The position numbers were made by a program, and so were the translations under genes. Shown here piece by piece: positions 2,337 to 53,424 of a DNA stretch of 64,000 nt. This DNA is from a virus, in IMG/VR virus record IMGVR_UViG_3300032770_000002, positions 124,001 through 188,000 of that record. One strand, 5' to 3'. A model generated the notes under the pieces. It did no database searches, was not told where the DNA came from, and was given only the letters and a program-made list of their open reading frames with translations. Numbering within the stretch: the first letter of the stretch is position 1; each line of letters starts with the position of its first letter.

Positions 2337-2515
2337 CGTGCGAGAGCATTGTCAAGACCGTTGTCATTAGGGCCGTTGGACGAAAGGTCATTCGTTGCGG
2401 CAAGCCAGCAGCATGCTTCGTCAAGTCTGACGATGGCAAGTCACGCAAGGTGCTGTGCAAGAAGCATGGACGTGAGTTCAAGCGAAGCGGGTTTACGATC
2501 CACCAGCTTGAGTGA
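2315..2515 (+). CDS. Small cysteine-containing protein, possible zinc binder
   Basis: This is a 66-residue basic protein. Three of its four cysteines, including CGKPAAC, together with a final CKKHG, could form a small zinc site. The ATG at 2315 has a GAAGG sequence about nine bases upstream and lies inside the end of the previous gene. The gene ends by overlapping the next start (GTGA). A nucleic-acid-binding role is possible but not shown. Confidence 0.55.
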   Translation: MAKRTKLTCESIVKTVVIRAVGRKVIRCGKPAACFVKSDDGKSRKVLCKKHGREFKRSGFTIHQLE

Positions 2516-3090
2516 TTCTCTTCCACGTGAAGTCACGCTCGTTAATTGACAGGATAGCCATGCTTGAAGCCGCCAGTGTTGAGGTTTCAAGAGCGGCCAA
2601 GGACACGATCGACATTCTCAACCAAGCTGGGATCCCGGTTCTCATCACAGGCGGCTTGGCTGTCGTCGCGTATGGATATGATGCATTCACGCGTGACGTT
2701 GACCTGATAGTGCCTGACGTTGCGGCTGCACGCCAAGTCTTGAGGGACCATGGCTACCAACTTTCACCTCTTCCGTTTAGAGTTCACGCCCCTGTTTCTG
2801 GCGTTCACGTTGACATCATGCCTGGCGGGAAAAGTCTGACGCCAAGTTGTCCAGTTAATTTTCCAATGCCTACTGAGATGGGTCAAAACTATTCAAGCCT
2901 TGTCGACCTTATCTCAACCAAACTTGGAAGCTATGTGTCAGATAGGCGTAGCCGGTTAAAGGACCTTGTTGCCGTGACAGAACTCATCAAGGCCGGAGCA
3001 CCGCGAGACCTTGCGGTTGACCCGGTCGTTCGTGAGCTCTATCTTGAAACGTGGGATGGTGTTGCCAACGGTTTGGGTGAACTAGGGTAG
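2512..3090 (+). CDS. Nucleotidyltransferase-like protein
   Basis: Residues 40-70 carry a GGLAVVAYG turn followed by RDVDLIV. This matches the GG...G.R.T.DvDlvv core of the minimal nucleotidyltransferase fold seen in MNT, AbiEii and tRNA-NT-like proteins, which transfers a nucleotide to protein, RNA or a small molecule. The DxD pair would bind metal. The start is a GTG overlapping the previous stop. The N terminus, residues 7-19, is KSRSLIDRIAMLE, one example of the recurrent (S)xARxLID helix found through the window. No antitoxin partner is evident next door, so a toxin-antitoxin role is not supported. Confidence 0.55.
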   Translation: MILFHVKSRSLIDRIAMLEAASVEVSRAAKDTIDILNQAGIPVLITGGLAVVAYGYDAFTRDVDLIVPDVAAARQVLRDHGYQLSPLPFRVHAPVSGVHVDIMPGGKSLTPSCPVNFPMPTEMGQNYSSLVDLISTKLGSYVSDRRSRLKDLVAVTELIKAGAPRDLAVDPVVRELYLETWDGVANGLGELG

Positions 3091-3096
3091 CTGGTT

Positions 3097-3453
3097 ATGA
3101 CGATGACACCCGCGGACATTGCAAAAGCTGGCGCCATGCCAGACTTTAAGCTGGAGTGCGTCCCCTACGTCGGCTACAGCAACATCGACAGTCAAGTCTA
3201 CACGGGCTGTGGGTTAAAGGACTTGAACCACATGATTGACGCCGCGACGTTTTTCATGCAGCAATACCCGCGTGGCGTGCTCCTCTTTTACCGCCCGTGG
3301 CACGGCGATGAGACCGGCGCGAGCGACACGGCGTCTGACGTTTTTCGCATCCAACCAGTGGACATCGACGACATCGTCGCCGTGCGTGACGCCTTCGTGG
3401 CCTATTGGGGAGCTGTCGACAGGCCAACGGATTGGCTCAATGAGCCGTCGTAG
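3097..3453 (+). CDS. Hypothetical protein, paralogue of the 1992-2336 product
   Basis: This 118-residue protein aligns by eye with the product of 1992-2336 from about residue 15 to the end. Shared points are an FKLE/FHLD strand, a central helix followed by QYPRG or KYPTG, DDIVAVR or DDMVAFR, YWG or QWG, and a terminal NEP. The N-terminal 14 residues are unique. It lies six bases after the nucleotidyltransferase-like gene. The function is unknown. Confidence 0.65.
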   Translation: MTMTPADIAKAGAMPDFKLECVPYVGYSNIDSQVYTGCGLKDLNHMIDAATFFMQQYPRGVLLFYRPWHGDETGASDTASDVFRIQPVDIDDIVAVRDAFVAYWGAVDRPTDWLNEPS

Positions 3454-3467
3454 TTCTGTTGCTTGTC

Positions 3468-4034: not shown

Positions 4035-5112
4035 TGACGCGCTCAGCATCATCCATCACGGCCGCAACAGGGCCAAGTTGCTGGAACTGGTTTATCGCGG
4101 GCACGAGTGTGACCACGGGGACGGGCTGTTGCCACACGAGAAATTCACCCTGGCTGACAAGGCCGCCGCAGCAATCGCCCGCCTCACTCCTGACGATGAC
4201 ACAAAGCTCGACCGGCAGTCCGTTGCCAAATACATCGACCTAGAGAAGGTTGACTCGCCTGACTTCATCTACGGATACGAAGACGTCATTGACGCGGTCC
4301 TCAGCCACACCTCCAACAACCTCGAGCCTGAACTGAGGGACTGGCTCATCGACCGTGGCGTGACCGAGGAGCAGGTCCGCAGCTTTCGGTCGTTTAGCCA
4401 AGTGAGGAGCCGGCGACACCGGATTTACCTTGGCATCGAGGTTCACCCGGCGCTTCAGAAGTGGGTGGGCTGTTCAAGACCCAAGGGCATCATGATGAGC
4501 GCCTTTGGGTGCGATGGGGCGCTCTCTGGTGTGCACCTGCGGATGCTGTCCACCGTGCCGAAGATCAAGTTTGGCGCCTCTGTGCCACTGCTGCATGTCT
4601 CATCAAACGTCTGGTGTTGCCCGCGGCTTTACACTCACGCGCCGGATTTTGAGCCAGGCATGGACGTGTGGCTCGTTGAGGGGATCTTCGATGGGCTGGC
4701 CTTGGACCGGGTTGGAAAACACTACTTTTCGCCGTCAAGTGGCACGTGGTCATGTGAGCAGCTTTTCATCCTCGTCTCCCAGCTTCGGCGCTGCAAGCCA
4801 GGGCGGGTCATCTGCGCCCACGACAACGACCGTGTTGGGTTGAAGGAGAACCTCTTCCTCTGGTCGGTGTTGAGGCCTGAGTTTCAGACTGAGATCTTCG
4901 CTTACCCAAAGGGCGTCAAGGACATGTCGGAGCTCGTCTGCAAGCACCGCTCTGACCCGACGTCAGGTTCATTGGTCAACGCCGAAAAGGTCGCGGAACA
5001 GTATCTCGCCATGCCTTACAAGCCAGTCGTTCAATTTGACCACTATCTTGACTTTCGCAATTCGGCCTACAACAATGACCGCTATGCGTGGGCATATTTA
5101 AAGCATGGGTGA
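4021..5112 (+). CDS. DNA primase-like protein with TOPRIM domain
   Basis: This 363-residue protein has the core of a DnaG-type primase. Residues about 100-125 read LIDRGVTEEQVRSF, like the N-terminal part of the primase core. A beta-rich middle contains a SGVHLRM segment. The TOPRIM domain follows, with VEGIFDGLALD carrying the catalytic Glu and AHDNDRVGLKEN carrying the metal-binding DxD. Such enzymes make RNA primers at replication forks. An N-terminal CHC2 zinc finger is absent or degenerate. The ATG at 4021 is chosen because upstream sequence in this frame is a shadow of the membrane micropeptide. The stop overlaps the next start. A TOPRIM nuclease is the alternative. Confidence 0.7.
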   Translation: MTIDDDALSIIHHGRNRAKLLELVYRGHECDHGDGLLPHEKFTLADKAAAAIARLTPDDDTKLDRQSVAKYIDLEKVDSPDFIYGYEDVIDAVLSHTSNNLEPELRDWLIDRGVTEEQVRSFRSFSQVRSRRHRIYLGIEVHPALQKWVGCSRPKGIMMSAFGCDGALSGVHLRMLSTVPKIKFGASVPLLHVSSNVWCCPRLYTHAPDFEPGMDVWLVEGIFDGLALDRVGKHYFSPSSGTWSCEQLFILVSQLRRCKPGRVICAHDNDRVGLKENLFLWSVLRPEFQTEIFAYPKGVKDMSELVCKHRSDPTSGSLVNAEKVAEQYLAMPYKPVVQFDHYLDFRNSAYNNDRYAWAYLKHG

Positions 5113-5782
5113 GTCACGCCAATTGATTGACGACCTTGAGCGGCGGCGTAAGCGCAATGTCACGGTGACCGAGATCAACCAGCTTATTGGTGGGTTCCAC
5201 TTCGACTTTCCGCGGTCGTCATCGCACGTCGACTACAAGCCGCAGCGTGAAGCGTGGCTGAATGTGGCCAGGCACCTCGACTGCACGCTCCTCGACCTGG
5301 CTGACGCCATCGCCAGTCCTAGCAAGACCCCTGAATGTGACCACTACTTGGTCGGCATTGAGGGCCTGTGGGAACTGACGCGCCACCCTGAGCTGTTCAA
5401 GCTGACTGACTATGACACGTCACGATTGACCGACCAGCTTGTCGTCTCTTACTTTTACGGCAACGACGACCGGCGTGAGGCTTTCCGCAAGTATGCGTCA
5501 CACAAGCCTGAGGACATGGCCTCGTCCATTGCGGAGTTTCTCAGCGGTGCTGGCGCTAAGGCCAAAGGGAATGTCGTCACATACGACCCGACTCGGTTTG
5601 TTGAGTTAGACTGGCGGATTGACAGCATCGATGAATTAACCGAGCCGCTCTTGAGCAGCGGTTGGAATGTCGAGATAAGGCCAAGCAAGACGACAAAGGC
5701 TTCGACGATGACTCCACTCATGGAACTTGTCGTGCACGGCCTTGACTTCCGCGGGGCGATGCACCGCATTCTAGGCCGCTAG
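5105..5782 (+). CDS. Hypothetical protein with N-terminal SRQLID helix
   Basis: The 225-residue product begins GESRQLIDDLERR, a clear copy of the recurrent (E)SxARxLIDxL motif. No catalytic motif is visible in the mixed alpha/beta body. The C terminus, RGAMHRILGR, resembles the RVxxILG ending of the modular proteins in the 14-31 kb region. The gene overlaps the primase gene by eight bases and is probably co-translated with it. It ends just before a promoter. Confidence 0.65.
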   Translation: MGESRQLIDDLERRRKRNVTVTEINQLIGGFHFDFPRSSSHVDYKPQREAWLNVARHLDCTLLDLADAIASPSKTPECDHYLVGIEGLWELTRHPELFKLTDYDTSRLTDQLVVSYFYGNDDRREAFRKYASHKPEDMASSIAEFLSGAGAKAKGNVVTYDPTRFVELDWRIDSIDELTEPLLSSGWNVEIRPSKTTKASTMTPLMELVVHGLDFRGAMHRILGR

Positions 5783-7276: not shown

Positions 7277-7534
7277 ATGAAGTCACGAGATTTAATCGAT
7301 TCACAGTATGGCGGGAGGCCCGTTCCGCCGCATCAAAATCTCGACACTGACACCGAGCTTGACCTGGCGTCTAAGCAGGGTTTCACGGCGTGGGAATACG
7401 CCCAACGGATGAACCGCCACCACCCTCGCCTGCTTCAGGCTGTGACTGGCACCCCATACGAGCCGCTTTATCGCCGCCATTTCAACCTTCCTCAGCAAGA
7501 CAAGTGGTATGAAGGCCAAGTTAAGCCGACGTAA
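7277..7534 (+). CDS. Hypothetical protein with N-terminal SRDLID motif
   Basis: The 85-residue product starts MKSRDLIDSQYGG, another copy of the recurrent ARxLID helix. The rest is polar and rich in His, Pro and Arg, with no known motif. The gene overlaps the start of the Tat-signal gene by 26 bases. Confidence 0.6.
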   Translation: MKSRDLIDSQYGGRPVPPHQNLDTDTELDLASKQGFTAWEYAQRMNRHHPRLLQAVTGTPYEPLYRRHFNLPQQDKWYEGQVKPT

Positions 7535-12235: not shown

Positions 12236-12710
12236 CCGCGGCCTTGTTGCGCAGTGACTTCTTCCAGTCAGCGAAAATCTGGCGTGACTCTTCAGGAGTC
12301 TTGTCGCCGATGGCGATATACTCGATCTCGCAGGTTGGCTGGACATTTACCCGAGCGTCAACGTCAGGCCAACTAGCATCGGCTGCGCCATCTTCAGGCC
12401 AATTGACCGTTGTGACGTCGATGCGGTGGCCTTCACCGATGATGTATGTTCTCGACGCCGGTGGATTGACCACCCACTTGTTCTCGTCCTTGAGCACCAC
12501 CTGAAGCTGTGACTCACCGATTGGCATGACTTGGCCATTTTGGGTCAAGCTGAAAAAGATGGTGTAATTGTGGCAGGTAGACTCGGCGGCCTTAATGGCG
12601 GGTAGGACCGGCAAGGCCGACGGTTTAGCCAGCTTCCGAAGGAACGAAATCGGGGCTGCGGCCACGGCTAAACTGCTCAGCACTCGGCTGATGAATAAGC
12701 GTCTCTTCAT
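12222..12710 (-). CDS. Exported protein with Tat-like signal, 162 aa
   Basis: The N terminus, KRRLFISRVL, is followed by a hydrophobic Ala- and Leu-rich segment and an Ala-Ala-Pro. This resembles a twin-arginine or Sec signal with paired Arg. The mature part is beta-rich with an acidic middle and one or two cysteines. It follows another RR-signal gene, so the two may form a pair of exported proteins. The fold is not recognised. Confidence 0.55.
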   Translation of the reverse strand: MKRRLFISRVLSSLAVAAAPISFLRKLAKPSALPVLPAIKAAESTCHNYTIFFSLTQNGQVMPIGESQLQVVLKDENKWVVNPPASRTYIIGEGHRIDVTTVNWPEDGAADASWPDVDARVNVQPTCEIEYIAIGDKTPEESRQIFADWKKSLRNKAADVVL

Positions 12711-12981
12711 ACGCCCTTAAGAACGGGCCTCGGCCACACTTGATGTCCATGAACATGATTGGACTGGTTGGCAAACTCATTGGTTGAACTGAGATAAGTT
12801 GGTCGATGACATCGCACTCCGACATGTTTTGAATGACCGGGAAGATCCACCTTGGGAAGTCGCCCACTTTACGGCGGGCCACGCGCCAGACTGGCTTGAT
12901 GAGTTTTGGAACGAAAATCCTAGGTCCAGACAGGACGACTAAGCCAGACGCAAGAACCTTGAAGAAACTGCGGCGGTGCAC
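12625..12981 (-). CDS. Tat-signal protein with a capsid-like VQPMxxPT motif
   Basis: This 118-residue protein starts HRRSFFKVLASG followed by hydrophobic residues, a good twin-arginine signal. After a basic linker comes a Pro-containing helix and then ISVQPMSLPTSPIMF. That order resembles the VQPM..PTG..F motif near the N terminus of T4 gp23-type capsid proteins. The similarity covers only about 30 residues and may be chance. The 3' end overlaps the next exported-protein gene by 86 bases. Confidence 0.5.
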   Translation of the reverse strand: MHRRSFFKVLASGLVVLSGPRIFVPKLIKPVWRVARRKVGDFPRWIFPVIQNMSECDVIDQLISVQPMSLPTSPIMFMDIKCGRGPFLRAYEETLIHQPSAEQFSRGRSPDFVPSEAG

Positions 12982-14322: not shown

Positions 14323-14793
14323 TTAGGATGGTGTTCGTAAGTTGTCAATGAGTTTCCTCGCCTTGGACTCAGTCAGCGCGGCTTCAACCTGAATCCAAGC
14401 TAGGAACTTGGCGTCGAGCAGGATTTCATACCCAGGGACCTCTTCGTCCATGATTGCGTCGATGCCACCTTGAGCTTGGATTCCCTTGATGCTGTTGATG
14501 TCATTCGGTCGATATCGCTCTTTGTAAGGGAGGTGGCGCCAAATCTCATAGGCGATGTCCTCCATCCCATACGGGTGGTCCTTCAGGCTTGGGTTTAATA
14601 ATTGTCGAAGCGGCACCTCGATCTCCGGGCCATAGCGTGCAACGGCCTTCTCAACGATGGCTTGAATCTGAGGCTCGGCCACGCCAGGGTGGATTGCGCC
14701 GCCCTTGTAGACCACTCGACGAACTTCCAAAAAGACTCGGCCAGCTTGTTTGCAAGCTGTCCAAAGTTTTTCATCGTATTCGTCGATTCTCAT
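14323..14793 (-). CDS. Module C family protein ending in SKARKLID motif
   Basis: This 156-residue protein is one copy of what I call module C. It has a helix with (R)YGxE, a variable middle, and a helix ending in FLAWIQVEAALTESKARKLIDNL. The last ten residues are the recurrent (E)SxARxLID motif. The same F..W.kV..aL.ES order is repeated in the next three minus-strand genes. The ATG overlaps the stop of the 16.6 kb gene (ATGA), so four genes form one operon read from 18.37 kb. The function is unknown. Confidence 0.7.
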   Translation of the reverse strand: MRIDEYDEKLWTACKQAGRVFLEVRRVVYKGGAIHPGVAEPQIQAIVEKAVARYGPEIEVPLRQLLNPSLKDHPYGMEDIAYEIWRHLPYKERYRPNDINSIKGIQAQGGIDAIMDEEVPGYEILLDAKFLAWIQVEAALTESKARKLIDNLRTPS

Positions 14794-16598
14794 GGTGATT
14801 CAAGCCTACGGCTTATCTTGATTCGTTGAAGTTCGATCTTGAACCGCTTAAGGGCCTCTTCCTCATCCTTCCCGACGAGGAGGAAGATGTGGTCGATCTT
14901 GTCTGGGTTTGCGGTAGTGGTGCGGACGCCATGCATGTCGAGGTCGACGATTCGGTCACCGGTCTTAAATTGGTCGTTGGTGAGTCGCATCACCATCTCA
15001 AATGTGTCTTGGTAGTGGGCGCTGCTGTAGTCAATGGCGTGTCGAAATGGCTCGATCGCGCTGATGACCTCATCCGTGGTCGCGTCAAATGGAATGACAA
15101 TAACTTCCACGGGCGTCTCAAGCTCAGTCGAATCTGGCCTTCCAGGGCGGTTGTAGTAGAGGCGTTGGAACCTTGGCCCGTAGTCGTCCCTAGGGTGCTG
15201 TCGGTGGTGAAACTGGGCCATCTCATCAACGACAGAACGCGCTGAGGACTCGCCTAGCTTGTGGCGCAATATCCGGCCTTCGGTCTTTACCAATGCGTCA
15301 TGGAAGGCCTCTTGAAACGCGGTGGTGGCCAACTGCGAGATGACATGCCAACTGACGTATCGCGACACATAGTTCACTATTCCAGCCTCGTGGTTGCACG
15401 TTATCCAGATGTCCTCGAGCACGCGAAGCAAGTCATCGTCGACTTCCTCCTTGAGAAAACGCTTAAACCAAGCCCACTCGCGCCGATCGTAATTTACAAC
15501 GGGCGCCATCATGCGGCCAACGACGTCAGCGTTGGATTCGCCAAGCAAGCTGCTGACTCGGCCTCGTTCAAGCATCTTGAGGGCTCGCTCAAGCTGGTCT
15601 TTGAACTCACCCGTGTCCATCTCGGTGTAGTCCTCCTCGCTGACATACTCTTGGATGTAGTCGAGCACGCCGCGCATGTTGCCGCAGTAGTTGAAGACGT
15701 CGGCCACGATGTCAATGTGCTCTTGTGTGGCGCCGGACTGTTCAAGGTTGTAAAGGAGCATCTTGAGCTTTGGCCGGCCAAAGCTGATGATCGGGAAGAG
15801 GACTTCGGCCAGGCCAACGATGTGGGCCAGTCGGCGCAACTTGGCTCGCTTTCTGGCCTGTTCCATCTCCTCGTCACCTTCGTTGAGGTGCGTCCTGACG
15901 ATGTCGCCTAACAATCGACGGTGCTCGTCCGGGTTGAGCAGGACCCAAAAACTTTGATTCCACCCGCCGCGCTGGTGGATGTTGTAAAGTGTGTCGCCTG
16001 GACGCATCTGCGTGGCGACAAACTGGCCGATTCGTTCGTTGTTGTTTGAGTCGCCGCAGTGCCGGTATGGGTCAAGCAGCCTGTAAAGGATGTTGTGGTC
16101 GCCCGTGTGGACGTCAATTGTCGGCGCTTCAGGCAGGATGACGTCGCCTTTGCGTATTGGGTCTTTGTTGGCGACATTGTAGCTTGGGTCAAGTTCGGAG
16201 TCATCGCCAGCTCTGGAGAGGTCACGCTGCATCCGATAGTATGGCATCTCCATTAGGCTGTTGACGACAGAACGCGCCTTGGATTCAAGTGCGTCTCTCA
16301 TCTTGGCTTTTTGAATCAACAGCCTCAAGTAGCTTAAAAACTCGTCCGACGAGAACGTGGCGTAAAGTGCTTTGTCATTGGCATCGCCATGTTTCATCAT
16401 GTCAAGCTGGTCCACGAGGATGGTCCAGCCTCCGGGCAAGAGAGAAGCCAGTTCATCGCTTATTTTATCGCCAAAGCGAGCTTTGACTTTGTCGATCATT
16501 TGACGAGTAACGGCATCTTCAGGATTTGACGTGAATGCCATTCTAAAATTAACAATCTCGTCAGCTACATCCACCAAGAGGATAGGCGTGGGTATCAC
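14790..16598 (-). CDS. Multi-module (C-B-C-C-B) hypothetical protein, 602 aa
   Basis: By eye the protein divides into five repeats. Module C (to about residue 110) ends ESKARSVVNSLMEM. Module B (to about 215) contains SFWVLLNPDEHRRLLGD. Two C-like modules follow, ending LLGESNADVVGRMM and LGESSARSVVDEM. A last B module ends FLLVGKDEEEALKRF. Each joint carries the recurrent (E)SxAR helix. Other genes in the window carry one or two of these modules, so this looks like a fused array. No catalytic motif is evident. The start overlaps the stop of the upstream gene. Confidence 0.7.
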   Translation of the reverse strand: MIPTPILLVDVADEIVNFRMAFTSNPEDAVTRQMIDKVKARFGDKISDELASLLPGGWTILVDQLDMMKHGDANDKALYATFSSDEFLSYLRLLIQKAKMRDALESKARSVVNSLMEMPYYRMQRDLSRAGDDSELDPSYNVANKDPIRKGDVILPEAPTIDVHTGDHNILYRLLDPYRHCGDSNNNERIGQFVATQMRPGDTLYNIHQRGGWNQSFWVLLNPDEHRRLLGDIVRTHLNEGDEEMEQARKRAKLRRLAHIVGLAEVLFPIISFGRPKLKMLLYNLEQSGATQEHIDIVADVFNYCGNMRGVLDYIQEYVSEEDYTEMDTGEFKDQLERALKMLERGRVSSLLGESNADVVGRMMAPVVNYDRREWAWFKRFLKEEVDDDLLRVLEDIWITCNHEAGIVNYVSRYVSWHVISQLATTAFQEAFHDALVKTEGRILRHKLGESSARSVVDEMAQFHHRQHPRDDYGPRFQRLYYNRPGRPDSTELETPVEVIVIPFDATTDEVISAIEPFRHAIDYSSAHYQDTFEMVMRLTNDQFKTGDRIVDLDMHGVRTTTANPDKIDHIFLLVGKDEEEALKRFKIELQRIKISRRLESP

Positions 16599-17230
16599 TT
16601 GAGCAGCCTCCTGAAGTCCTTGCCAACGGCCTCGATGGACATGCGCTTGAGCTCGTCATACTCTTCGGGGTTGGCCAGCACAAGCCAGCTATTCAATGAC
16701 TGTTTTGACGCCCTAACCATGACGACTTTGTCTTCTGGATTTTTCGACAGGACGAATGACACGATCTTACTGGCCTCTAATTGGCCAGGAATGAACCGCA
16801 GTGGCCCAAGGATTGGCTGAAGATAAACGTCCCACCCAACTCCAAGTCGCAGGTCTTCGATGTCCGGCAGCGTGCCAGTCATGTCGGCTTCGTAAAGCGA
16901 AACGGTGACAGCGACCCAGTTCTCGAACTCCTTTGACATGATCACCTGGTAGGCGTCATTGCTCAGGTTGCGGGCGATCTCGTCAGAAATTCGTTGAGTC
17001 GCAAAGGTCCGTTCAAGCATGTTCGTGTGGGACCAGTTGTCTTGAATCGCTAACAGTTCGTCGAGCGCGTTAGAGACCTCCTTGCCGTAGCGCCGCTCGA
17101 CTTGTTTAAGAAAAGCTGGATAATCTTTAGAGTCGTCTGGAAACTTGCGTGAGATCCATCGAACCGTGCGTGTGCCGCGGTTGACGTCACCCATGTCGAT
17201 GTTGTCAATCAGTTGGCGTGCGACACTCAC
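16595..17230 (-). CDS. Module C-B protein with N-terminal ARQLID motif
   Basis: This 211-residue protein starts SVARQLIDNIDMG, the recurrent motif. It continues with module C (VERRYGKEVSNAL then FENWVAVTVSLYEAD) and ends with module B (SWLVLANPEEYDELKR and a basic helical end). The GTG start overlaps the stop of the gene at 17227. The layout is the same as part of the 602-residue neighbour, so the genes are paralogues arranged head to tail. The function is unknown. Confidence 0.7.
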   Translation of the reverse strand: MSVARQLIDNIDMGDVNRGTRTVRWISRKFPDDSKDYPAFLKQVERRYGKEVSNALDELLAIQDNWSHTNMLERTFATQRISDEIARNLSNDAYQVIMSKEFENWVAVTVSLYEADMTGTLPDIEDLRLGVGWDVYLQPILGPLRFIPGQLEASKIVSFVLSKNPEDKVVMVRASKQSLNSWLVLANPEEYDELKRMSIEAVGKDFRRLLK

Positions 17231-18369
17231 TTTCCAAGCTCCTCATGCTGGGCCATTTCCAATTGAGAATCGATGAGTCGGCGTGCGCTAGACTCAGATA
17301 GCAGTGACATCGTCACCTTGGACCACGCAACAAACTCATTGCTTATGACCTTGTCGAGCACGTTTATGGTAAAGTTTCCATTGTCAAGATTTTGTTTAAT
17401 CCACTCGTCAACTGGAAGTCCTGGGTGTTTTAAGATGGCCTTGACAATAGTGGCCGCTTCGTCGCCATAACGCTGCTTGACGCGTTCAAGGTATGCACCT
17501 AAAATTCGCTCCCTTCTAGACTTGAGCCGGGCTTGAACCTCACCATACTGTGCGCCGGCCATTACGTGCGGGTCGTGCCTCGGCGTGTCCGTGGCCTGTT
17601 GATAGAGGGTGTTCAGGTCCCAGACCACGCTGTTGAGAACGTCAGTCCACTTAGACTTATTCTCTTGAAGGGTCGCCTCCATCTTCAACCACGACCGGAA
17701 TTTCGGGTCAAGGATCGCCTGGTAGACTTGTTTGATGACCGGGTCGTTTTGGCTATTGTAGACCTGCTTGCAGACCCACCTAGAGTCGGTTCCAGCCGAG
17801 TTGGTGACGAGCCACTCGGCCACCTCTTGCCCACATCGCTGTGACAAGCGTTCAAGGAAGCGGCTGTAGGTGTCGTAGTTGTCCACGTCACCGTGCTTAC
17901 CATATCGCGATAGCACGTCGTGCAGGTCATCGAGCACTGGCTTCCAGTCGTCCCACACCTTTCCCATGTCTATGTCGCCAAACAACCGGCGGTGCTCAGA
18001 CTCATGCAAAGCGGCCGTCACCTTGACCCAACTCTTGAATGCCGGGTTGAGGAGCTCCTCGACCATCTTTCGGGTCTCATACTGGTGATAGCCCTGGTGG
18101 TAAAAGATCTTGTCAATGACGTGTGAGATGACCGCGCCAGACGACTCAGCTCGCGTGCCTTCAACTCCCGGGGCCATGACTTCCTCGTGACCGACAAAGA
18201 CGTGCTGGTCCAGGTAGTCGACCGTCTCTTGGCTGAGGCCGCGTGAGAGAAGCAGGTCGAGGAAGTTGCCGTAAGACTCGTCGTCGTAGGACATCGAGTC
18301 GGCCAGCTTGATTAGCCCGCGTAATACGGGCCTCAATTCAGTCCACAGTTGGTCTAGTGTGTAGGCCAC
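17227..18369 (-). CDS. Triple module C protein ending in SARRLID motif
   Basis: This 380-residue protein contains three successive module C copies. Their closing segments are FKSWVKVTAALHESEHRRL (about residues 110-130), FRSWLKMEATLQENKS (about 228) and FVAWSKVTMSLLSESSARRL (about 350-370). Each is preceded by a helix with a conserved R(C/Y)G(Q/D)E core. The C terminus carries the full ESSARRLIDSQLEM motif. It starts with GTG and is the first gene of the minus-strand operon 18369-14323. No enzyme signature is visible. Confidence 0.7.
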   Translation of the reverse strand: MAYTLDQLWTELRPVLRGLIKLADSMSYDDESYGNFLDLLLSRGLSQETVDYLDQHVFVGHEEVMAPGVEGTRAESSGAVISHVIDKIFYHQGYHQYETRKMVEELLNPAFKSWVKVTAALHESEHRRLFGDIDMGKVWDDWKPVLDDLHDVLSRYGKHGDVDNYDTYSRFLERLSQRCGQEVAEWLVTNSAGTDSRWVCKQVYNSQNDPVIKQVYQAILDPKFRSWLKMEATLQENKSKWTDVLNSVVWDLNTLYQQATDTPRHDPHVMAGAQYGEVQARLKSRRERILGAYLERVKQRYGDEAATIVKAILKHPGLPVDEWIKQNLDNGNFTINVLDKVISNEFVAWSKVTMSLLSESSARRLIDSQLEMAQHEELGK

Positions 18370-18393
18370 GCTGGTCTAACTAGCCCACTGCGG

Positions 18394-22206: not shown

Positions 22207-22982
22207 AGGACAACTTCAGGTGCCCAGACGACCTTTACGTCGACGTTGAGGGCGTGCTTGGTGTGCGCCCACAAAAATCGGCGCAAAACTTCGACCCACT
22301 CTCACAGGAGACACAAACTGGGTATAAAAATGTCCTCCACCGGGCGCACATTTCTTGCAAAAACCAATTGTGGTCAAGTGTGCGTAATGGTGGGCAGCCA
22401 ATTAGGTATCGCCTTGCGTGGAATTACTTGGACAACAATGAACCCGTGGCCTTTATTGATATGGTTGAGATTCGACGCATGAACTTTGTCCACAAAGACG
22501 GCACGCCTTATGACATCCGCCCACTTGAGGCCAAGTTCTTGCGGACGCAGATTGACAAGTTGCCAGAGAGTCGAGCTCAGCAGGTCATTGAGATGGCGTA
22601 TTATTCGCTCCACGATCACCCACCGAGTGAGCAGTGGGTCAAGGACAACAACGTGGACGTCGTCCTGACGAAACACGTCCCGATATGGGACATTGCGGCG
22701 ACGAACGTGCACCACCTGTTTCATGGCATGAAGTGGACTGACTCGTCACGCTACGATGCCACTGACAACCTGCTGGCGTTTCTCAACACGAAGGAGGGTG
22801 ACGAGACGTTCGTCCGAGTTCGAATCATTCACCCTGACACCCTCGCCCTTGTGAATCGAGCTGGATTATCGAGCGGGCTGACTGGCATCTACTACGTCTT
22901 GGCAAAGCCTGAACAGCTTGAAAAACTCAGGCGCGAGATGATCAAGACCCAAGGGATGAAGGTCAAGAAGGCCCTCAAGTGA
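22203..22982 (+). CDS. Module A-B fusion protein with an internal motif, 259 aa
   Basis: Residues about 1-115 are module A, ending in FVHKDGTPYDIRPLEAKF and a short basic helix. Residues 118-135 hold the recurrent linker (ESRAQQVIEMAYYS). The rest is module B, ending YYVLAKPEQLEKLRR and a Lys-rich helix. The protein thus shows in one chain what the neighbouring genes carry separately, which supports the view that the array evolves by fusing and splitting modules. The start is a GTG overlapping the previous stop. Confidence 0.7.
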   Translation: MKDNFRCPDDLYVDVEGVLGVRPQKSAQNFDPLSQETQTGYKNVLHRAHISCKNQLWSSVRNGGQPIRYRLAWNYLDNNEPVAFIDMVEIRRMNFVHKDGTPYDIRPLEAKFLRTQIDKLPESRAQQVIEMAYYSLHDHPPSEQWVKDNNVDVVLTKHVPIWDIAATNVHHLFHGMKWTDSSRYDATDNLLAFLNTKEGDETFVRVRIIHPDTLALVNRAGLSSGLTGIYYVLAKPEQLEKLRREMIKTQGMKVKKALK

Positions 22983-23653
22983 ACGCGCGCCAGACAATTG
23001 ACGAGATGGCCCACATGATCTTGGGGCGGCGCAAGAAGCCAACTGTCACCGACATCAAGGTGGGTGTTGATGTTTATTCAACGCTTCCCGCGTTGAAGGC
23101 TTTCGCCGTGGCCGTGCTGTCAAATGGCCAGTTTAAACACTTTGAAGTTACAGAACCAACCGATGCCGATGATACAGCCATGGTCCACGCAGCTAGGGCC
23201 GTCAGCGGGGGTGATTCTTTCTATGCTACTTTTCCAATGACCCAGCTTGAGGTAAGGCTTCGCGAAAAGAACTGGGCAAAACTCCAGTCAATGCGTGAGG
23301 AAGTTGTGCGCCAGGCCAAGGCCTGGGTTTACGACAATGAGCGTGAAATCAAGTATGGAAAGCTCAAGCGCCCGCAGTCGATAAAGCTCGACTACGACGC
23401 TGCCCCGCTCGTCAAGGGATTTCGGTTCATTCGCTTCGCCAAGGGCTCACGCAAGGGGATGGACAGTGTCTTGGCTTTGACCCAAAGCGCCGCGCCAGGG
23501 GAGTCCGTGCTCAAGGTCGAAGGGAGTGACATGACCCACACGGGTCTGCGATACGTGTATTACGTCCTGCTCACCCCTGAGGAACGCCAAGAGCTTGAGC
23601 GTCGGCGCATCCAGGTTGAACGGGAGCGCATTGGAGGCATCCTCGGCCAATGA
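22979..23653 (+). CDS. Module B protein with N-terminal ARQTID motif, 224 aa
   Basis: It starts NARQTIDEMAHMILG, the recurrent motif, on a GTG overlapping the previous stop. The middle is charged. The C-terminal 110 residues are module B, with GFRFIRFAKGSRKG, a GESVLKVEG strand, YYVLLTPEERQELERR and the basic helix ending GGILGQ. It is closely parallel to the product of 30606-31244. No known family or catalytic motif was seen. Confidence 0.7.
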   Translation: MNARQTIDEMAHMILGRRKKPTVTDIKVGVDVYSTLPALKAFAVAVLSNGQFKHFEVTEPTDADDTAMVHAARAVSGGDSFYATFPMTQLEVRLREKNWAKLQSMREEVVRQAKAWVYDNEREIKYGKLKRPQSIKLDYDAAPLVKGFRFIRFAKGSRKGMDSVLALTQSAAPGESVLKVEGSDMTHTGLRYVYYVLLTPEERQELERRRIQVERERIGGILGQ

Positions 23654-24426
23654 ACGCGAAGGACGTCATCGAGGCCAGGTTTAAACACCGGCCACACCCA
23701 GGCCTTTGCATCAAGGTGACGCTGAGCATTGGCAAGGCACCACCCAAGTTTAGTCAGCCATTTCACCTGATCGTTCCAGTTCCAGCCCGAGTTCCATTTG
23801 ACAGCGTTGAAGAGTGGTGGGATGGCACTGAATCGCCAGCGGGCATAGAGCTGTGGGACATGATGCAACAGCAGCTTCCAAAATTCTCAAAAAACTTGGA
23901 AAGATACGGCCTAGTAAGAAATTGGCGCTACGCCATCATGAGGAACGGGAAGAGGATCAAGTTGAAGGGCCGCTCACCGAACCTTCAACTAGAGGAGCCC
24001 TATGTCGTTGCTTATGTCCACAGGAACGGCAAGCCCTACGACATTCGCCCATTTATGCGTGACCGCGTCTCAGGCCTGCTCGGTGAGTCACGTCCACACC
24101 CTGGACTTTGTGTTCAAATCGACATTGACGTCTATCGCTATGATGCAACATCGACCGTCCATGAGCCAAAGGTAATGACGATAGTGGTGCCAGTTCCAGA
24201 CGGGGTTCCTTTCGACGACATTCAATACTGGCTTAGGCAGAAGGAAAGGCCTGGTTCATTTGTGACGTGGTGGCCATATATCGAAGCGCAACACCACATC
24301 GACAAAAACACGGTCAGCGCCATTGTTTACCCAGGTGGAATTGCCGGCTACGTTCACGCTGACGGAACACCTTACGACGTCCGCCCATTTTTCGGTGATC
24401 GCGTGAAAGGCATACTTGACAAATGA
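23650..24426 (+). CDS. Tandem module A protein with N-terminal AKDVIE motif, 258 aa
   Basis: Two copies of module A follow an N-terminal NAKDVIEAR motif. Each begins HPGLC(I/V) with a strand, then VPVP, an aspartate-containing turn, a Trp-rich helix, and Y(V)H..G.PYD(I/V)RPF, ending in DRV(S/K)G(L/I)L. The copies meet at LLGESRPHPGLC. The ends of copy 1 and copy 2 correspond to module ends that are stop codons in neighbouring genes. The start overlaps the previous stop (ATGA). Confidence 0.75.
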   Translation: MNAKDVIEARFKHRPHPGLCIKVTLSIGKAPPKFSQPFHLIVPVPARVPFDSVEEWWDGTESPAGIELWDMMQQQLPKFSKNLERYGLVRNWRYAIMRNGKRIKLKGRSPNLQLEEPYVVAYVHRNGKPYDIRPFMRDRVSGLLGESRPHPGLCVQIDIDVYRYDATSTVHEPKVMTIVVPVPDGVPFDDIQYWLRQKERPGSFVTWWPYIEAQHHIDKNTVSAIVYPGGIAGYVHADGTPYDVRPFFGDRVKGILDK

Positions 24427-24854
24427 AGGCCAGACAACTCATTGACGCTAAGCTCAACGAGCCACACTACAACAGCCCTGAGGAAGTTCGGCTGGCCCGC
24501 GTGACGTTCAACGTCTCCATCGAGAATGTTGAGGGTGAAGTGACCCGCAAGATGGGGCCGTTTATGGTTGACGTTCACCTCGATCCTGGGGAACTTGAGG
24601 CCAAAGGGTTGACACTGGCCAGCAAGCGTTTCTGGCAAGGTAATGGGGAGTGGAGACTGTGGAAAGAGTTCAGGGGGCAGCATCAAAAGGATTATACTGT
24701 GATCGGTGCGTTGATCGCCGATCATTATCTCGTCGACGCGGACGTCGTTGACGTCAAGATCGTTGACTACTTCGGCAACCCGGTCGACCTGCAGAACGTC
24801 GCTCGTGGTTTCATCAAGGGGCAGCTTGACAAGCCAAGTGAAAACGAGGAGTAG
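24423..24854 (+). CDS. Divergent module A protein with N-terminal ARQLID motif
   Basis: The 143-residue product starts KARQLIDAKLNE, the recurrent motif. It continues as a diverged module A in which the usual GTPYDIRP is GNPVDLQN and the ending is FIKGQLDK. It is overlapped by the next gene. The function is unknown, but the position in the array and the ATGA start mark it as a family member. Confidence 0.65.
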   Translation: MKARQLIDAKLNEPHYNSPEEVRLARVTFNVSIENVEGEVTRKMGPFMVDVHLDPGELEAKGLTLASKRFWQGNGEWRLWKEFRGQHQKDYTVIGALIADHYLVDADVVDVKIVDYFGNPVDLQNVARGFIKGQLDKPSENEE

Positions 24855-26732: not shown

Positions 26733-27212
26733 ATGGCTGAGGAACTTCCATTTGCTGTTAAGGTCGACGTGCCGGGCGAGATTGAGGGCCAGTATTTTGT
26801 CGCCCACTGCGTCGCGACGATCATGCCACGTGCGGCCTCGCCGGCACATGTGAATTCACCGACATGGGTGAATGCACCGACGTGGCCTGAGCTTAGGAAG
26901 TGGGTCGAAAATTTTTCATCCATGACCGGGTTTCCTGGCCGAATAGGCCAGATTGATTCTGTCGTGTTTGACAGCGTTCGTGACCAGTTTGCGGAAGCGG
27001 CTTCTCAACTTGGAAAGAGGTCAGGACCCCTGCCGAAAAACTACACCATCGATTGGAAAAACGCCACGTTCACGTGGCTCGATCGAAACCAAGAACCGTT
27101 TGACACGAGGCGACTTGACGGCGAGTATGTCCGCCAACAACTTGACAAGAGCCTACAACATGAAAGTTCGTCCAAGTCAGTGATTGACGATGTTTTTCGC
27201 CGTTACCGATGA
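26733..27212 (+). CDS. Module A family protein ending in SSKSVIDD motif
   Basis: The N-terminal half is beta-rich and contains the tandem NSPTWVNAPTW (an 18-bp imperfect duplication). The second half is a diverged module A in which WLDRNQEPFDTRRL replaces the YxHxDGTPYDIRPL segment. The C terminus is ESSSKSVIDDVF, the recurrent motif. The gene starts 15 bases from the HNH start on the other strand, with AGAGAA upstream of its ATG. The next start overlaps its end. Confidence 0.65.
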   Translation: MAEELPFAVKVDVPGEIEGQYFVAHCVATIMPRAASPAHVNSPTWVNAPTWPELRKWVENFSSMTGFPGRIGQIDSVVFDSVRDQFAEAASQLGKRSGPLPKNYTIDWKNATFTWLDRNQEPFDTRRLDGEYVRQQLDKSLQHESSSKSVIDDVFRRYR

Positions 27213-30087: not shown

Positions 30088-30606
30088 ATGTTCGACGTCA
30101 CAACGCTGAAAATTGGGCCGCTTCCAGAGGCGCTTGTCTCGGCTTCCATTGACTTCGCCACTCAATTTAGCGTGAAGATGCACGAGACCATGATGCCGGC
30201 GTCTGTCTTCTTCACCAAGCAGGGACGATTTGGGACGGTCAAAATTCCGGTAATCCAAGACCCCAGTGACAAAAATGTGGTCTCGCAAGTCATTCGTGAT
30301 TTCAGGCGTGATTGCGATGCCGTCACTTTTGTCGCTGAATCGTGGATAGTCGAGCGGCCAGTAAACAGGAAAGACCCAAACAAGGAAGACGTCAAGAAGA
30401 TGGCGGACAAGATGTTTCCGACTGGCATCATCCACGACGAGCCGGATCGTAAGGAGGTCGTCATGCTATGCATCTACGTCAAGTCAAGGACACTCATTCT
30501 TACCGCGCCCATCGAACGCACCCCAGACAAGGTCAGTCTTGGCGATTGGGAGGTGACTCAGGACTCCGCAGTCGATTCTCGACTCGCAGGGAGGTTTATA
30601 GATTGA
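30088..30606 (+). CDS. Hypothetical protein, leaderless, 172 aa
   Basis: The start is the ATG six bases after the -10 of promoter 4, so the mRNA would have no leader. The protein is alpha/beta. A long N-terminal region with a VKMHETMMPA helix is followed by charged strands, with a KSRTLIL strand near residue 130. I recognise no family. The stop overlaps the next start by one base (TGATG). Confidence 0.65.
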   Translation: MFDVTTLKIGPLPEALVSASIDFATQFSVKMHETMMPASVFFTKQGRFGTVKIPVIQDPSDKNVVSQVIRDFRRDCDAVTFVAESWIVERPVNRKDPNKEDVKKMADKMFPTGIIHDEPDRKEVVMLCIYVKSRTLILTAPIERTPDKVSLGDWEVTQDSAVDSRLAGRFID

Positions 30607-31244
30607 TGACATTCGGTGCCAAAGCGTTGATTGACTCGCTTCTTTACGAGATGCCACGCCACCTGACTAGGAAGCCTGAGCATGACCGGCCGCGGATAAC
30701 GTATACGACTGAGTTGGACGGGTGGAACGGCAACTTCTTGTGCAAGGCGACTGCAATCCTTTCGAGCGGTGAGACGAAGGTCTTTAAGACGACCGTTCCA
30801 ATGACGCCTGAACAACGTGAAACGTGCAAGACACTCAATTTCGACCAGGCCAAGAGGCAGTATCCAAAGGAGACTAAGCAAGTTTATGACGAGGCCGTCT
30901 CGGCCGCGCGCGAGTGGATTGAAAAGAATGACGAGCCATACGTCATGATGGACCAGTCACTCAACTACGACCTCATCGGTGACGACCTGCTGTGGGTTCT
31001 CAAGGGTTTCCGATACGTTGTTGGAAATAAAGGGGTGTTGGGTGGCGGTCCGGCAGCGTCCTTAGCGGCCTTGGCCAACATGATGAAGCCAGGAGACAAG
31101 GTGGTCCAGGTGACCACCCGCGACCACCCACAGGATTTTCGCTTAACCTATTTCGTCGTTGTCAACCCTGCCGAGGGTGAGGAACTCCACCGTCGGGCCA
31201 TTGAGGCCAAGCGCAAAGAGGTCAGTTCATACCTTGAAACATGA
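30606..31244 (+). CDS. Module B protein with N-terminal AKALID motif, 212 aa
   Basis: The N terminus (FGAKALIDSLLYEM) is the recurrent motif. The C-terminal half is module B, with GFRYVVGNKG, a GDKVVQV strand, YFVVVNPAEGEELHRR and the basic helix ending VSSYLET. It is a close paralogue of the product of 22979-23653. ATG 30606 overlaps the preceding stop. The function is unknown. Confidence 0.7.
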   Translation: MTFGAKALIDSLLYEMPRHLTRKPEHDRPRITYTTELDGWNGNFLCKATAILSSGETKVFKTTVPMTPEQRETCKTLNFDQAKRQYPKETKQVYDEAVSAAREWIEKNDEPYVMMDQSLNYDLIGDDLLWVLKGFRYVVGNKGVLGGGPAASLAALANMMKPGDKVVQVTTRDHPQDFRLTYFVVVNPAEGEELHRRAIEAKRKEVSSYLET

Positions 31245-31621
31245 GCGCGCTGATGATCATCGATGCCGTCTACGAGGAAGACGGGATGAAGGCCAACTAC
31301 CGACTTCAGCAAGTCGGCCATACGTTAGCTGAAATGGGCGCCTGGTTTGGAAGCTTGTGGTCTTGGTCTCGTTCAACAGGATTACGCGAGGTTTCAACAG
31401 AATTACGCGAGCAAATTGTCAAGGAGATTGATGACAGGTTTGGGGTTCCTGTCGGCGGCGTCTTTCGCGAGTGCCTTAATCGCTACTTCATCAGTGACAT
31501 CGTCAGCTACCTTGCCAACGCTGAACACTTGCCGGCCATCCAGACATTCATCAGTGACGAGTGCCAAGCTTGGCTAAAGGCCAGGATCTTCAAGGCCAAA
31601 TTTGAAATGAGGCACGGGTGA
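31241..31621 (+). CDS. Module C-like protein with an IIDAV start, 126 aa
   Basis: It starts SALMIIDAVYEED, a degenerate copy of the recurrent motif. The body is module C, with DRFGVPVGGVFR, a variable middle and ECQAWLKARIFKAKFE at the end. A 20-bp imperfect tandem repeat (about 31371-31411) duplicates the segment ST(G/E)LRE. It is coupled to neighbours on both sides by ATGA and GTGA overlaps. Confidence 0.65.
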   Translation: MSALMIIDAVYEEDGMKANYRLQQVGHTLAEMGAWFGSLWSWSRSTGLREVSTELREQIVKEIDDRFGVPVGGVFRECLNRYFISDIVSYLANAEHLPAIQTFISDECQAWLKARIFKAKFEMRHG

Positions 31622-32103
31622 TTCGAGTCAATGTCAACGGCAGGCTGTGGGAGCTCGGCCAAGAGGTCGATCCTGAGTGGCCATTTCAGGTTGAAAAAGA
31701 TGTTGGGTTTGATGGCCTGGTTTTGCTTAATGACAACGAGAAGTCAGACTATTTGACTCACGTTGGATTTGTTCGCGGTAGTGCAACGGTCTTTTTCTAT
31801 GGCATCGAGGACGGCGACCTCTATTATTTGGGCGAGGACCCAAGCGTCGAGTCAGACCAAATGGTCATTGAATCACCGTATCGTGACGCCGAGTATTTGC
31901 TCGTCAATGGTGGGACGGCCTACTGGTCCAAGCCTGTCAACTTTGACATTGGGCCGTTCAAGAAGAAAGTGGTCGACAAGTATGACAAGGCCGTGCCATG
32001 GGCTGAGGTTGACGCGTATGGCGACAAGGTAGACCGCGACATTGGCGAGTCAGCAGCTCGTCTGGCTATCGATAACCTGTTCTTACAACGTGACCGGACT
32101 TAG
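31618..32103 (+). CDS. Hypothetical protein ending in SAARLAID motif, 161 aa
   Basis: The start is a GTG overlapping the previous stop. The body is beta-rich and acidic, with several Asp-Gly turns. The C terminus, IGESAARLAIDNLFLQ, is one of the cleanest copies of the (E)SxARxxIDxL motif, here without a recognisable module after it. No other family feature was seen. Confidence 0.65.
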   Translation: MIRVNVNGRLWELGQEVDPEWPFQVEKDVGFDGLVLLNDNEKSDYLTHVGFVRGSATVFFYGIEDGDLYYLGEDPSVESDQMVIESPYRDAEYLLVNGGTAYWSKPVNFDIGPFKKKVVDKYDKAVPWAEVDAYGDKVDRDIGESAARLAIDNLFLQRDRT

Positions 32104-32302
32104 ACGATTTACAGCCCGAGATTTGATTGAGGTCGGCGACCCGGAGATGATTGCCGACCTCCTTCTTGAGGCCGACGATGCCGAATATGCCCAGGTCTTT
32201 CCAGAGCCGGAAGACGCTGACTTGGATCAAGAGACAATCATTCGTCGTATGAACCTAGTGAGACGAATTCACCAAGAGCTTGACGGTGAGGTGGTGCGAT
32301 GA
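32090..32302 (+). CDS. Small acidic protein with ARDLIE motif, 70 aa
   Basis: GTG 32090 gives a protein that starts TGLRRFTARDLIE, carrying the recurrent motif, then a very acidic middle rich in Glu and Asp and a helical end. It overlaps the genes on both sides, and its stop overlaps the next ATG (ATGA). It is probably co-translated with the PcfJ-like gene that follows. Confidence 0.6.
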   Translation: MTGLRRFTARDLIEVGDPEMIADLLLEADDAEYAQVFPEPEDADLDQETIIRRMNLVRRIHQELDGEVVR

Positions 32303-33555: not shown

Positions 33556-33594
33556 GGTTAAACTCAGGAAATTTCTGGTTTTCCTAGTTAGGTC

Positions 33595-51278: not shown

Positions 51279-51901
51279 AATGGACGCATTGCAAATATGA
51301 CGGTGCAAGGCTGAGGAAAGATGCGGACAATACTGTCCAACGAAAAACTGTCAGTGGCACCATGGTCTTCCGACGTCAGAAGATGATGGGCCTCCACGTC
51401 ATCGAAAATTCCATCGTGTTCCTATGGGTGATGTCAACCGCTCGACGAGTCATTGACCAAGTTGCTGAGTCTGACGACCTCAGTCAGGCCATTCGTCAGC
51501 GTGAACACTTGATCCTGTGCATGCGCGACCCAGCATTTGTCGCGCGGAGTGAAAATCCTCGGAAAGCCATTACTGGAGACATTCTCAAGATCACACGGAG
51601 AATGAAGCACCCGCCTGGTTCAACAGTCCACATCATGCAATTGACCAGGGACGCCGAGGACATTGATCGGCCGTGGGACCGCGGCACGCGAACGGTTCGT
51701 GCAACTCAGTTTCAAGGAATTCCACCGCAGGACAGTAAGACGTGGGGTCGTCCAACTTATGGTCATTCCGTTGATTATTGGAACTATGAACCACACGAGT
51801 GGGGCACCCAGGAAGTCGAACTGGTCGGGCACGGAAAACGTCATGAGCTGGGACGGCTATGGACGCCACGGCCTGGAAATCCTGGCTACGATTTGGGCTA
51901 G
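51275..51901 (+). CDS. Hypothetical protein with STARRVID motif, 208 aa
   Basis: The recurrent motif (MSTARRVIDQVAES) lies at residues 53-66, so a second start at ATG 51431 would put it at the N terminus as in most other members. The ATGA overlap favours 51275. A two-cysteine start and a helical middle precede a basic Pro- and His-rich C-terminal domain. The protein family is not recognised. Confidence 0.55.
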   Translation: MKWTHCKYDGARLRKDADNTVQRKTVSGTMVFRRQKMMGLHVIENSIVFLWVMSTARRVIDQVAESDDLSQAIRQREHLILCMRDPAFVARSENPRKAITGDILKITRRMKHPPGSTVHIMQLTRDAEDIDRPWDRGTRTVRATQFQGIPPQDSKTWGRPTYGHSVDYWNYEPHEWGTQEVELVGHGKRHELGRLWTPRPGNPGYDLG

Positions 51902-51908
51902 TTAGCAT

Positions 51909-52328
51909 ATGCCGAGTTTAGCTCGAGTCGTCATCAACATTTTCGAGGCATGTTACTGCCAAGCCTCTGGCGAGGAGGTCGTCAACTACCTGCTTGACAT
52001 TGGCACGTCACATGGCGGATTTTTGCCAAAAACCTTGCGTGACATCGCCGGCCGTGACTTTGAGTTGACGTCAGTTCCCATTGACGACCTGCTCAGGTCC
52101 GATGACAAGTTCGCTGAATTTTATCGCAAGACCAAGCGGCCAGACCCAAACAAACCTTACCAGCCGCGTGATTTAAGGCAGACCGACAAGGGTGAGCCGG
52201 TGGAGGCTGAGGACTTGATTGACTCGCCAGTCGTTGTCATTGATGGGAAGCTCCGTGACGGGTGGCACAGAACGGCCGGAAAATTGGACAGGGGTGACAA
52301 GAAGGTCTTGGCATACGTAGCAAAATGA
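51909..52328 (+). CDS. ParB/Srx-like phage protein, 139 aa
   Basis: The C-terminal stretch (SPVVVIDGKLRDGWHRTAGK) fits the VIDG...DGWHR motif of small phage proteins related to the ParB/Srx fold, whose members bind nucleotides or DNA. The N terminus (SLARVVINIFEA) is a degenerate copy of the recurrent motif. The stop overlaps the next ATG. No partner gene of a partition system is close by. Confidence 0.5.
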   Translation: MPSLARVVINIFEACYCQASGEEVVNYLLDIGTSHGGFLPKTLRDIAGRDFELTSVPIDDLLRSDDKFAEFYRKTKRPDPNKPYQPRDLRQTDKGEPVEAEDLIDSPVVVIDGKLRDGWHRTAGKLDRGDKKVLAYVAK

Positions 52329-52921
52329 AAGCACGCGACATCATCGATTCGGTCACACCAGAGCGGGCGTGTGTTCAGTGCGAAATTGAACACGGCATTT
52401 ACGACAAGTCAGACCCTAACAAGTCACATGGCTCGTGCCGGCGTCACCTTGAACAGTGGGCAAGGGAACAAGGATTGACTGACGCCCAAGTTGATGAGAT
52501 CATGCGTGAGACCAAGTCTTACCCACCGGACTTGGGGCCAGTTCGTGAAGCCTTAGAAAGGGCTTGTTCGCAGTGCGAAAAGGACCACGGGATTCGAAGC
52601 CACGGTAAAAGCCACGGGCTCTGCAAGCGGCATACCATTGAGTGGGCCAGGGAAGGCGGAGTCTCCGAACCTGAGATTGAGGCCATCGTTCGTGAAGTTG
52701 ACGCTGGTAGTGGCTTTCCAGAGGACCTTGGGCCAGTCAAGAAGGATGAGGACCTTGAAAAACAGTGCCTCTACTGTGGGCGGCTATTTGACCCGCAGTC
52801 AAACCAGTGGGTCGACGCAAAACCTAGGGACCCGAATAACGTCAGTCACGGCTACTGCCCTGATTGTTTGGAGAAGTCCAAGCAACAGGTTCGGTCTATG
52901 TTTGGAACGGAGCGCCGTTGA
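52325..52921 (+). CDS. Repeat zinc-finger-like protein with ARDIID motif, 198 aa
   Basis: Two copies of a 50-residue unit each have CxxCExxHG(I), then KSHGxCxRHxxxWARE and a helix. A third, more diverged CLYCG...SHGYCPDC unit follows. Each pair of Cys/His clusters could bind zinc. The N terminus KARDIIDSVTPE is the recurrent motif. The units recall small zinc modules of signalling and phage proteins. The start overlaps the previous stop. Confidence 0.6.
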   Translation: MKARDIIDSVTPERACVQCEIEHGIYDKSDPNKSHGSCRRHLEQWAREQGLTDAQVDEIMRETKSYPPDLGPVREALERACSQCEKDHGIRSHGKSHGLCKRHTIEWAREGGVSEPEIEAIVREVDAGSGFPEDLGPVKKDEDLEKQCLYCGRLFDPQSNQWVDAKPRDPNNVSHGYCPDCLEKSKQQVRSMFGTERR

Positions 52922-53424
52922 ACGCCCGCAATCTTATCGACCGGTTGGTTGAAACGTCTGACTTGACGTTTGTCCCGATGGACGCTGACGAGATCCGGCA
53001 GGTTCAGTCTATTGCCGCTGGACAGCTGGCCAACGTGGACAATCTTTACTTCATTAACCAGGACATTACTGATTATCACAGCCTTAACATCGACATCCCG
53101 CAGGAGTATTTGCGCAAGAAGGTTGGACACGGCCTTGAATCGGGTGACGTTCACGGCGAGTTTTACGGATTCGGTCGAATGGCCTTCACACCTTCATCTC
53201 TTTTACGGTCTGAAATTGGAAGAGTTCCAGTTGTCTCTGGCTTGCACGTCATGGTGTTAAAGAGCAGCCAAGGGTGGGTTATTGGAACCACTCGCGGAGG
53301 GTCATACGGTGGCATAACTTTTTACAAGGACCACCCGATGCATGACCTCAACGCGGCCATCCAGAAGTTCATTGCCACGCTGGAAGTCATTGCAAATGGA
53401 CAAAATTCCCGGTTTGACAGCTGA
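52918..53424 (+). CDS. Hypothetical protein with N-terminal ARNLID motif, 168 aa
   Basis: The start is a TTG that overlaps the previous stop (TTGA), supported by the motif NARNLIDRLVETS at the very N terminus. The body is alpha/beta with a Gly-rich segment. No family is known. The last 38 bases overlap the end of the convergent PurZ-like gene. Confidence 0.6.
   Translation: MNARNLIDRLVETSDLTFVPMDADEIRQVQSIAAGQLANVDNLYFINQDITDYHSLNIDIPQEYLRKKVGHGLESGDVHGEFYGFGRMAFTPSSLLRSEIGRVPVVSGLHVMVLKSSQGWVIGTTRGGSYGGITFYKDHPMHDLNAAIQKFIATLEVIANGQNSRFDS

Follow-up and report, generated by a model that had tools for sequence, protein, structure and literature searches.

Introduction

In bacteriophage T4, the ten N-terminal residues of IPIII are enough for entry into the prohead core, after which the gp21 protease cuts behind a glutamate (PMC9026906 and PMC5694885, in the sections drawn on here). 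According to the same sections, T4 capsid-targeting sequences (CTS) are about ten residues long, and Alt is cut at both ends, at ITE-6 and LTE-619 (PMC9026906, PMC5694885). As for giant phages, the part of PMC5694885 used here describes gp53 and gp54 as having identical N-terminal 15 residues.

Here we analyse a window of 64,000 nucleotides (G000:C1:124001-188000) from a 230,253-bp IMG/VR phage record. The source is a metagenome-derived T4-type jumbo phage of 230 kb, in which at least 35 mostly otherwise unrelated proteins bear a helical tag at their ends. A short peptide common to the ends of otherwise different proteins is one mark of a T4-type CTS, and with a probability of roughly 0.6 we take the helix to be the capsid-targeting peptide of this phage lineage, linked in part to prohead-protease sites, for which we infer binding, location in the virion, cleavage and ejection.

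Materials and methods

Protein-level counts were drawn from stretches totalling about 137 of the 230 kb; regions of XacN1 and SP-15 do not enter into the evidence. A position weight matrix (PWM) was built from the sites listed in an earlier, sequence-only reading of the window and used to scan 173 called genes at a threshold score of at least 10. One seed of the PWM, LKARLIIDQL, lies outside the window and has no bearing on the regular-expression test. Gene starts were those of a simple coding-score caller with upstream extension, and because the caller is simple a few of them (2512, 27209, 30606, 32090, 51431) are uncertain.

Results

A helical peptide recurs at protein ends

The sequence-only reading had reported a recurrent (E)SxARxLIDxLL helix at the ends of about 25 otherwise different proteins between 2512 and 53424. 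Roughly 20 of the sites it listed are strong and about five are weak; the count and the limits proved too narrow, as 14 further genes outside the window begin with the motif. The PWM scan returned 43 sites, against 1.8 ± 0.7 in shuffled proteins, a control that the earlier reading had named as able to undo it. Since this count includes the training sites, the remainder of the phage outside the window is the fair test. In five stretches there, A[RK]x[LIV][IV][DE] (with A or S first) was terminal 11 times and interior twice, and the terminal enrichment that had been proposed as a check amounts to 27-fold per position (p = 2e-8). Within the window, the same expression was terminal 15 times and interior four times.

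At the DNA level, the pattern of the motif had 46 matches in the whole record and its reversed control three. The codons at matched motif residues are mixed, their agreement (0.38) being about what codon usage predicts, and selection therefore acts on the peptide; the codon diversity rules out a DNA-level repeat or a recent gene duplication as the source of the motif. Mixed codons also speak against the helix being a linker with no function of its own, the relic of an ancestral module whose repeat domains were duplicated and shuffled. Several carriers are indeed paralogous modular proteins in tandem, as would be expected of such a relic, but most carriers resemble one another, as far as could be detected, in the tag only; conservation of the tag is far higher than that of the bodies, and in relatives another tag takes its place. 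We give this explanation very little credence.

The sites within the window are collected in Table 1. Every N-terminal site claimed earlier was in place, at 2512, 5105, 7277, 17230 (minus strand), 22979, 23650, 24423, 27209, 28449, 30606, 32090 (a GTG start), 52325 and 52918 (TTG). The C-terminal sites of 14323, 17227, 26733 and 31618 held up as well, while that of 29759 is weak (score 7.3). Among the internal sites, two copies in 14790 are strong and the third is weak; the copy in 24838 stands and the one in 22203 is weak. Lastly, the supposed variant at 51431 matches strongly and would lie at the N-terminus (MSTARRVIDQV) should translation begin at that ATG, and the one at 51909 is weak.

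Table 1. Tag copies in the window (positions are those of the window; the motif position refers to the core of the tag)
Carrier	Tag	Context	Motif position	Strand	Evidence
2512-3090 (nucleotidyltransferase-like)	SRSLID	N-terminal	2533-2550	+	motif, PWM scan
5105-5782	SRQLID	N-terminal	5114-5131	+	motif, PWM scan
7277-7534	SRDLID	N-terminal	7283-7300	+	motif, PWM scan
14323-14793	LTE-SKARKLIDNLRTPS	C-terminal	14344-14361	-	motif, PWM scan
14790-16598	LGE-SSARSVVD	internal	15225-15242	-	motif, PWM scan
14790-16598	ALE-SKARSVVN	internal	16260-16277	-	PWM scan
16595-17230	ARQLID	N-terminal	17204-17221	-	motif, PWM scan
17227-18369	LSE-SSARRLID	C-terminal	17269-17286	-	motif, PWM scan
22979-23653	ARQTID	N-terminal	22985-23002	+	PWM scan, model
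23650-24426	AKDVIE	N-terminal	23656-23673	+	motif, PWM scan
24423-24854	ARQLID	N-terminal	24429-24446	+	motif, PWM scan
24838-26277	SNARKVIDEF	internal, before Pro-rich tail	26059-26076	+	motif, PWM scan
26733-27212	QHE-SSSKSVIDDV	C-terminal	27171-27188	+	motif, PWM scan
27209-28444 (or start 27230)	AREIID	N-terminal	27236-27253	+	motif, PWM scan
28449-29720 (homologues in four other phages)	ENARRLVDSVFE	N-terminal	28461-28478	+	PWM scan
30606-31244	AKALID	N-terminal	30618-30635	+	motif, PWM scan
31241-31621	ALMIID	N-terminal variant, weak	31247-31264	+	PWM scan
31618-32103	IGE-SAARLAIDNL	C-terminal	32056-32073	+	PWM scan
32090-32302	ARDLIE	N-terminal	32114-32131	+	motif, PWM scan
start 51431	ARRVID	N-terminal if start is 51431	51440-51457	+	motif, PWM scan
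52325-52921 (Cys/His-rich)	ARDIID	N-terminal	52331-52348	+	motif, PWM scan
52918-53424	ARNLID	N-terminal	52924-52941	+	motif, PWM scan

Form of the tag and adjoining glutamate sites

The motif occurs in three contexts: N-terminal, C-terminal and between domains. The N-terminal form reads M-[KNTRS]-A-R-x-[LIV]-I-D, with A at residue 3 in most of 28 sites. That most copies begin exactly at Met1 would suit an N-terminal coding effect on translation initiation, or a degradation tag, but the C-terminal and internal in-frame copies with mixed codons make such an effect hardly believable. In helical geometry, A, L, I and L (positions 0, 3, 4 and 7) share one face, and R+1 and D+5 are able to pair. 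A model of 22979-23653 places a helix at residues 3-15, with low confidence, and a loop between the helix and the folded body.

C-terminal and interdomain copies mostly read (L/I/A)-x-E-S-x-A-R-x-L-I-D. At the C-terminal and internal sites, E stands at A-3 in 7 of 12 cases (p = 1.5e-6) and S at A-2 in 8 of 12. After N-terminal copies, E was found at A+9 or A+10 in 11 of the 56 positions tested, a mild enrichment (p = 4e-4), and E closes the N-terminal tag in all five homologues of the 28449 protein. Given so few glutamates, most N-terminal tags here may stay unremoved; the T4 work permits targeting without processing. A role in cleavage, one of the functions offered earlier for the helix, is thus partly supported: the pattern of residues argues for it in the C-terminal and internal form, and weakly in the N-terminal form.

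Could the motif be a protease recognition and cleavage signal and nothing else, splitting polyproteins by an E-S cut that leaves S-x-A-R-x-L-I-D at the new N-terminus? The register of M-x-AR does match that of S-x-AR behind such a cut, and both the copies between domains in 14790 and the repeats in 17227 would be in keeping with it. Most copies, however, lie at a natural N-terminus with nothing upstream to cut, and we consider cleavage as the only function quite improbable.

As a separate observation on gene starts, the window contains CTAGTTAG three times (18376-18383 on the minus strand, 33584-33591 and 51898-51905; 0.24 expected) and another stretch contains it once (L036:170). Each copy precedes a start codon by 3-6 nt, possibly as an initiation or promoter element.

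Head genes of the phage

The capsid protein is of the gp23 type, with matches to phrog_138 and to 279 phage records. Adjoining its gene is that of a 611-aa protein (L033:11553-13388) in which a Peptidase_S77 domain (E = 5e-18; phrog_207, head maturation protease) is followed by a scaffold-like region. The genes of a T4-type prohead with an S77 protease, the setting in which T4-type capsid targeting takes place, are found in this phage. In T4, gp21 and gp22 are separate, whereas here a single protein combines the prohead protease with a long scaffold-like region, and relatives have the same fusion. In 10 of 10 phages, the protease-scaffold C-terminus reads [LIV]-x-E-[SA], followed by a helix-like tail of about 12 residues that bears R-L-[SA] or a close variant (LKESIAIARRLSGRP in this phage, relatives such as VNESVELVRRLS). 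Judged by its residues, this layout is that of the C-terminal tag. The capsid protein in relatives keeps [ML]LE-N[CA]R at residues about 70-75, plausibly a maturation site.

The window also holds an oddly placed partial copy of a capsid gene: a 118-aa ORF (12625-12981, minus strand) has a 48-residue stretch, 60% identical to residues 89-136 of the major capsid protein, behind a twin-arginine-like signal sequence.

Relatives carry tags of their own

When relatives chosen by their capsid protein were scanned with the matrix of this phage, almost no matches were obtained, and the exact motif was absent from them. Two relatives have tags of their own. In G004, the N-terminal form is M-x-A-[KR]-x-L-V-x-x-L-L-E and the C-terminal form NARQVIANLLE; in G012, the tag reads A-x-x-[IV]-V-x-x-L-L-E, with EESLAESVVSHLL at the C-terminus. 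Patterns of the AxxLVxxLL(E) type are enriched at protein ends 40-fold in G004 (p = 1e-7) and 12-fold in G012 (p = 1e-5), values that are descriptive, as the pattern was written after some of those genes had been seen. Neither tag pattern was found in G001, whose capsid protein is about 70% identical, which tells against the capsid-targeting reading.

The exchange can be followed on single proteins. The 28449 protein has one homologue each in G004 and G012 (33% and 29%), with the lineage's own N-terminal peptide ending in E: MSENARRLVDSVFE here, MPKPLARRILTE or MSTPLSKRILTE in these relatives. Proteins of two phages of 635-642 kb are also homologous to it along some 160 residues; they begin MKNFKDFMNE and MKNFSKFLEE, N-termini that resemble the T4 IPII/IPIII capsid-targeting sequence MKTYQEFIAE. 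MKxFxxFxxE-like N-termini, a pattern drawn up after inspection of genes of these two phages, are present in 12 of 57 and 13 of 52 of their genes, where shuffled sequences gave 2.9 and 1.8. The Pro-rich protein encoded just upstream (with Pro-rich neighbour proteins in L099 and L110) shows the same swap, with MRFLKKFEKFNEE in LR745206, MNARQFF and SNARQVIANLLE in G004, and SNARKVIDEF here. A supposed link between window 32299 and the protein next to 28449 in LR745206 was abandoned after testing. In a second family, the C-terminal helix is retained in three phages despite large divergence, and the sequence preceding it aligns poorly. Conservation in homologues, the other point on which the sequence-only reading had staked the motif, thus did not go against it: relatives bear their own tags there. 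As different versions of the tag sit on the same proteins, a capsid address label is the most likely reading.

The strongest rival is that the helix docks its carriers not to the capsid but to another phage-made hub inside the cell, such as a replication compartment, an FtsZ/tubulin-like filament or a membrane. A gene for an FtsZ/tubulin-like GTPase does lie at 58191-59396 (plus strand; weak match to the PHROG tubulin PhuZ, 58% identical homologue in G012), and N-terminal tags mostly have no cleavage site after them, as a permanent tag would. The E-S rule and the similar protease-scaffold tail, however, point to head maturation, and the homologue tags in the huge phages look like T4 CTS; docking elsewhere is in our view unlikely.

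The carriers

Carriers gave almost no family matches in Pfam and PHROGs, and a search of IMG/VR for homologues of 17227, 28449, 52325 and the L033 carrier found none; the homologues of 28449 described above came from the relatives' stretches. For the model of 22979 (pLDDT 74), neither PDB nor BFVD yielded a matching fold at E ≤ 0.001, and that of 28449 was of too poor quality. The 2512-3090 protein has a weak Pfam NTP_transf_5 match, below the cut-off, and 52918-53424 has a paralogue (G000:106940-107437) that is likewise tagged. Another tag carrier, L035:3474-4313, shows several zinc-ribbon matches and a weak Lar restriction-alleviation match. In G012, the protein L103:7142-7552 (minus strand) has the N-terminal tag MNAQNVVKQMLES and a weak match, below the cut-off, to PF08302 (2H-phosphodiesterase type), which makes it a candidate for an enclosed anti-defence enzyme.

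Discussion

Of the docking, targeting, packaging or cleavage roles first suggested for the helix, targeting or packaging into a T4-type prohead is best supported, by the S77 protease, the T4-type capsid and the swapped tags of relatives. In such a scheme, the amphipathic helix, with A, L/I, I and L on one face and the R-D pair opposite, would bind the scaffold core of the prohead, so that its bearer would be enclosed during head assembly wherever the tag lies, at either terminus or between domains. The prohead protease would then probably cut at the (L/I/V/A)-x-E adjoining the tag, mostly just upstream of it in the C-terminal and internal form and, for a minority of N-terminal copies, downstream, releasing the body, and the enclosed proteins would be ejected together with the DNA into the next host cell.

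More tentatively, T4-type jumbo phages may each have a 'zip code' peptide of their own, read by the prohead core and swapped whole as lineages diverge. If so, the injected proteins of a phage could be listed directly from its terminal peptides, and because the tag turns over by lineage, its recognition partner could be found by co-variation. Most giant-phage genes are of unknown function. The tag is carried by about a sixth or more of the sampled genes, and a terminal address marking dozens of giant-phage genes as head cargo would show which proteins enter the cell at the very start of infection, where anti-defence and take-over factors are likely to be found. A short tag of this kind would also serve to load proteins into jumbo phage heads.

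The tag would work like the T4 capsid-targeting peptides and is not a member of the T4 family by sequence. As with the N-terminal ten or so residues of T4 IPII and IPIII and the N- and C-terminal propeptides of Alt, a helix-prone end peptide sits on different proteins, both termini are used, and there are a T4-type capsid, an S77 protease and, in part, an adjoining (L/I)xE (PMC9026906 and PMC5694885, same sections). Unlike in T4, the peptide is MxARxLID and not MKTYQEFIAE, to which it has no recognisable sequence similarity; it has 35 or more carriers instead of a handful and interdomain copies, lacks the E site in most N-terminal copies, and has a packaging role that is predicted from sequence. 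The giant-phage propeptides of SPN3US and phiKZ are likewise terminal, on head proteins and served by a related protease, but most of them exceed 100 residues, their cleavage is at A/S-x-E, and the part of the source used here describes no short motif common to dozens of proteins (PMC5694885). In phage P1, the N-terminal 30 residues of DarB suffice to package a reporter, while the Dar proteins have no common consensus (PMC9024508). The encapsulation peptides of bacterial microcompartments, as treated in the sections consulted, are short terminal amphipathic helices that direct unrelated enzymes to the inside of a protein shell; they are a functional analogue only, belonging to a cellular organelle without a protease step (PMC7221423, PMC11157265). 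Terminal capsid-targeting peptides are thus already known, and what is new here is their reach, over 35 or more proteins, at both ends and between domains, together with their turnover between lineages.
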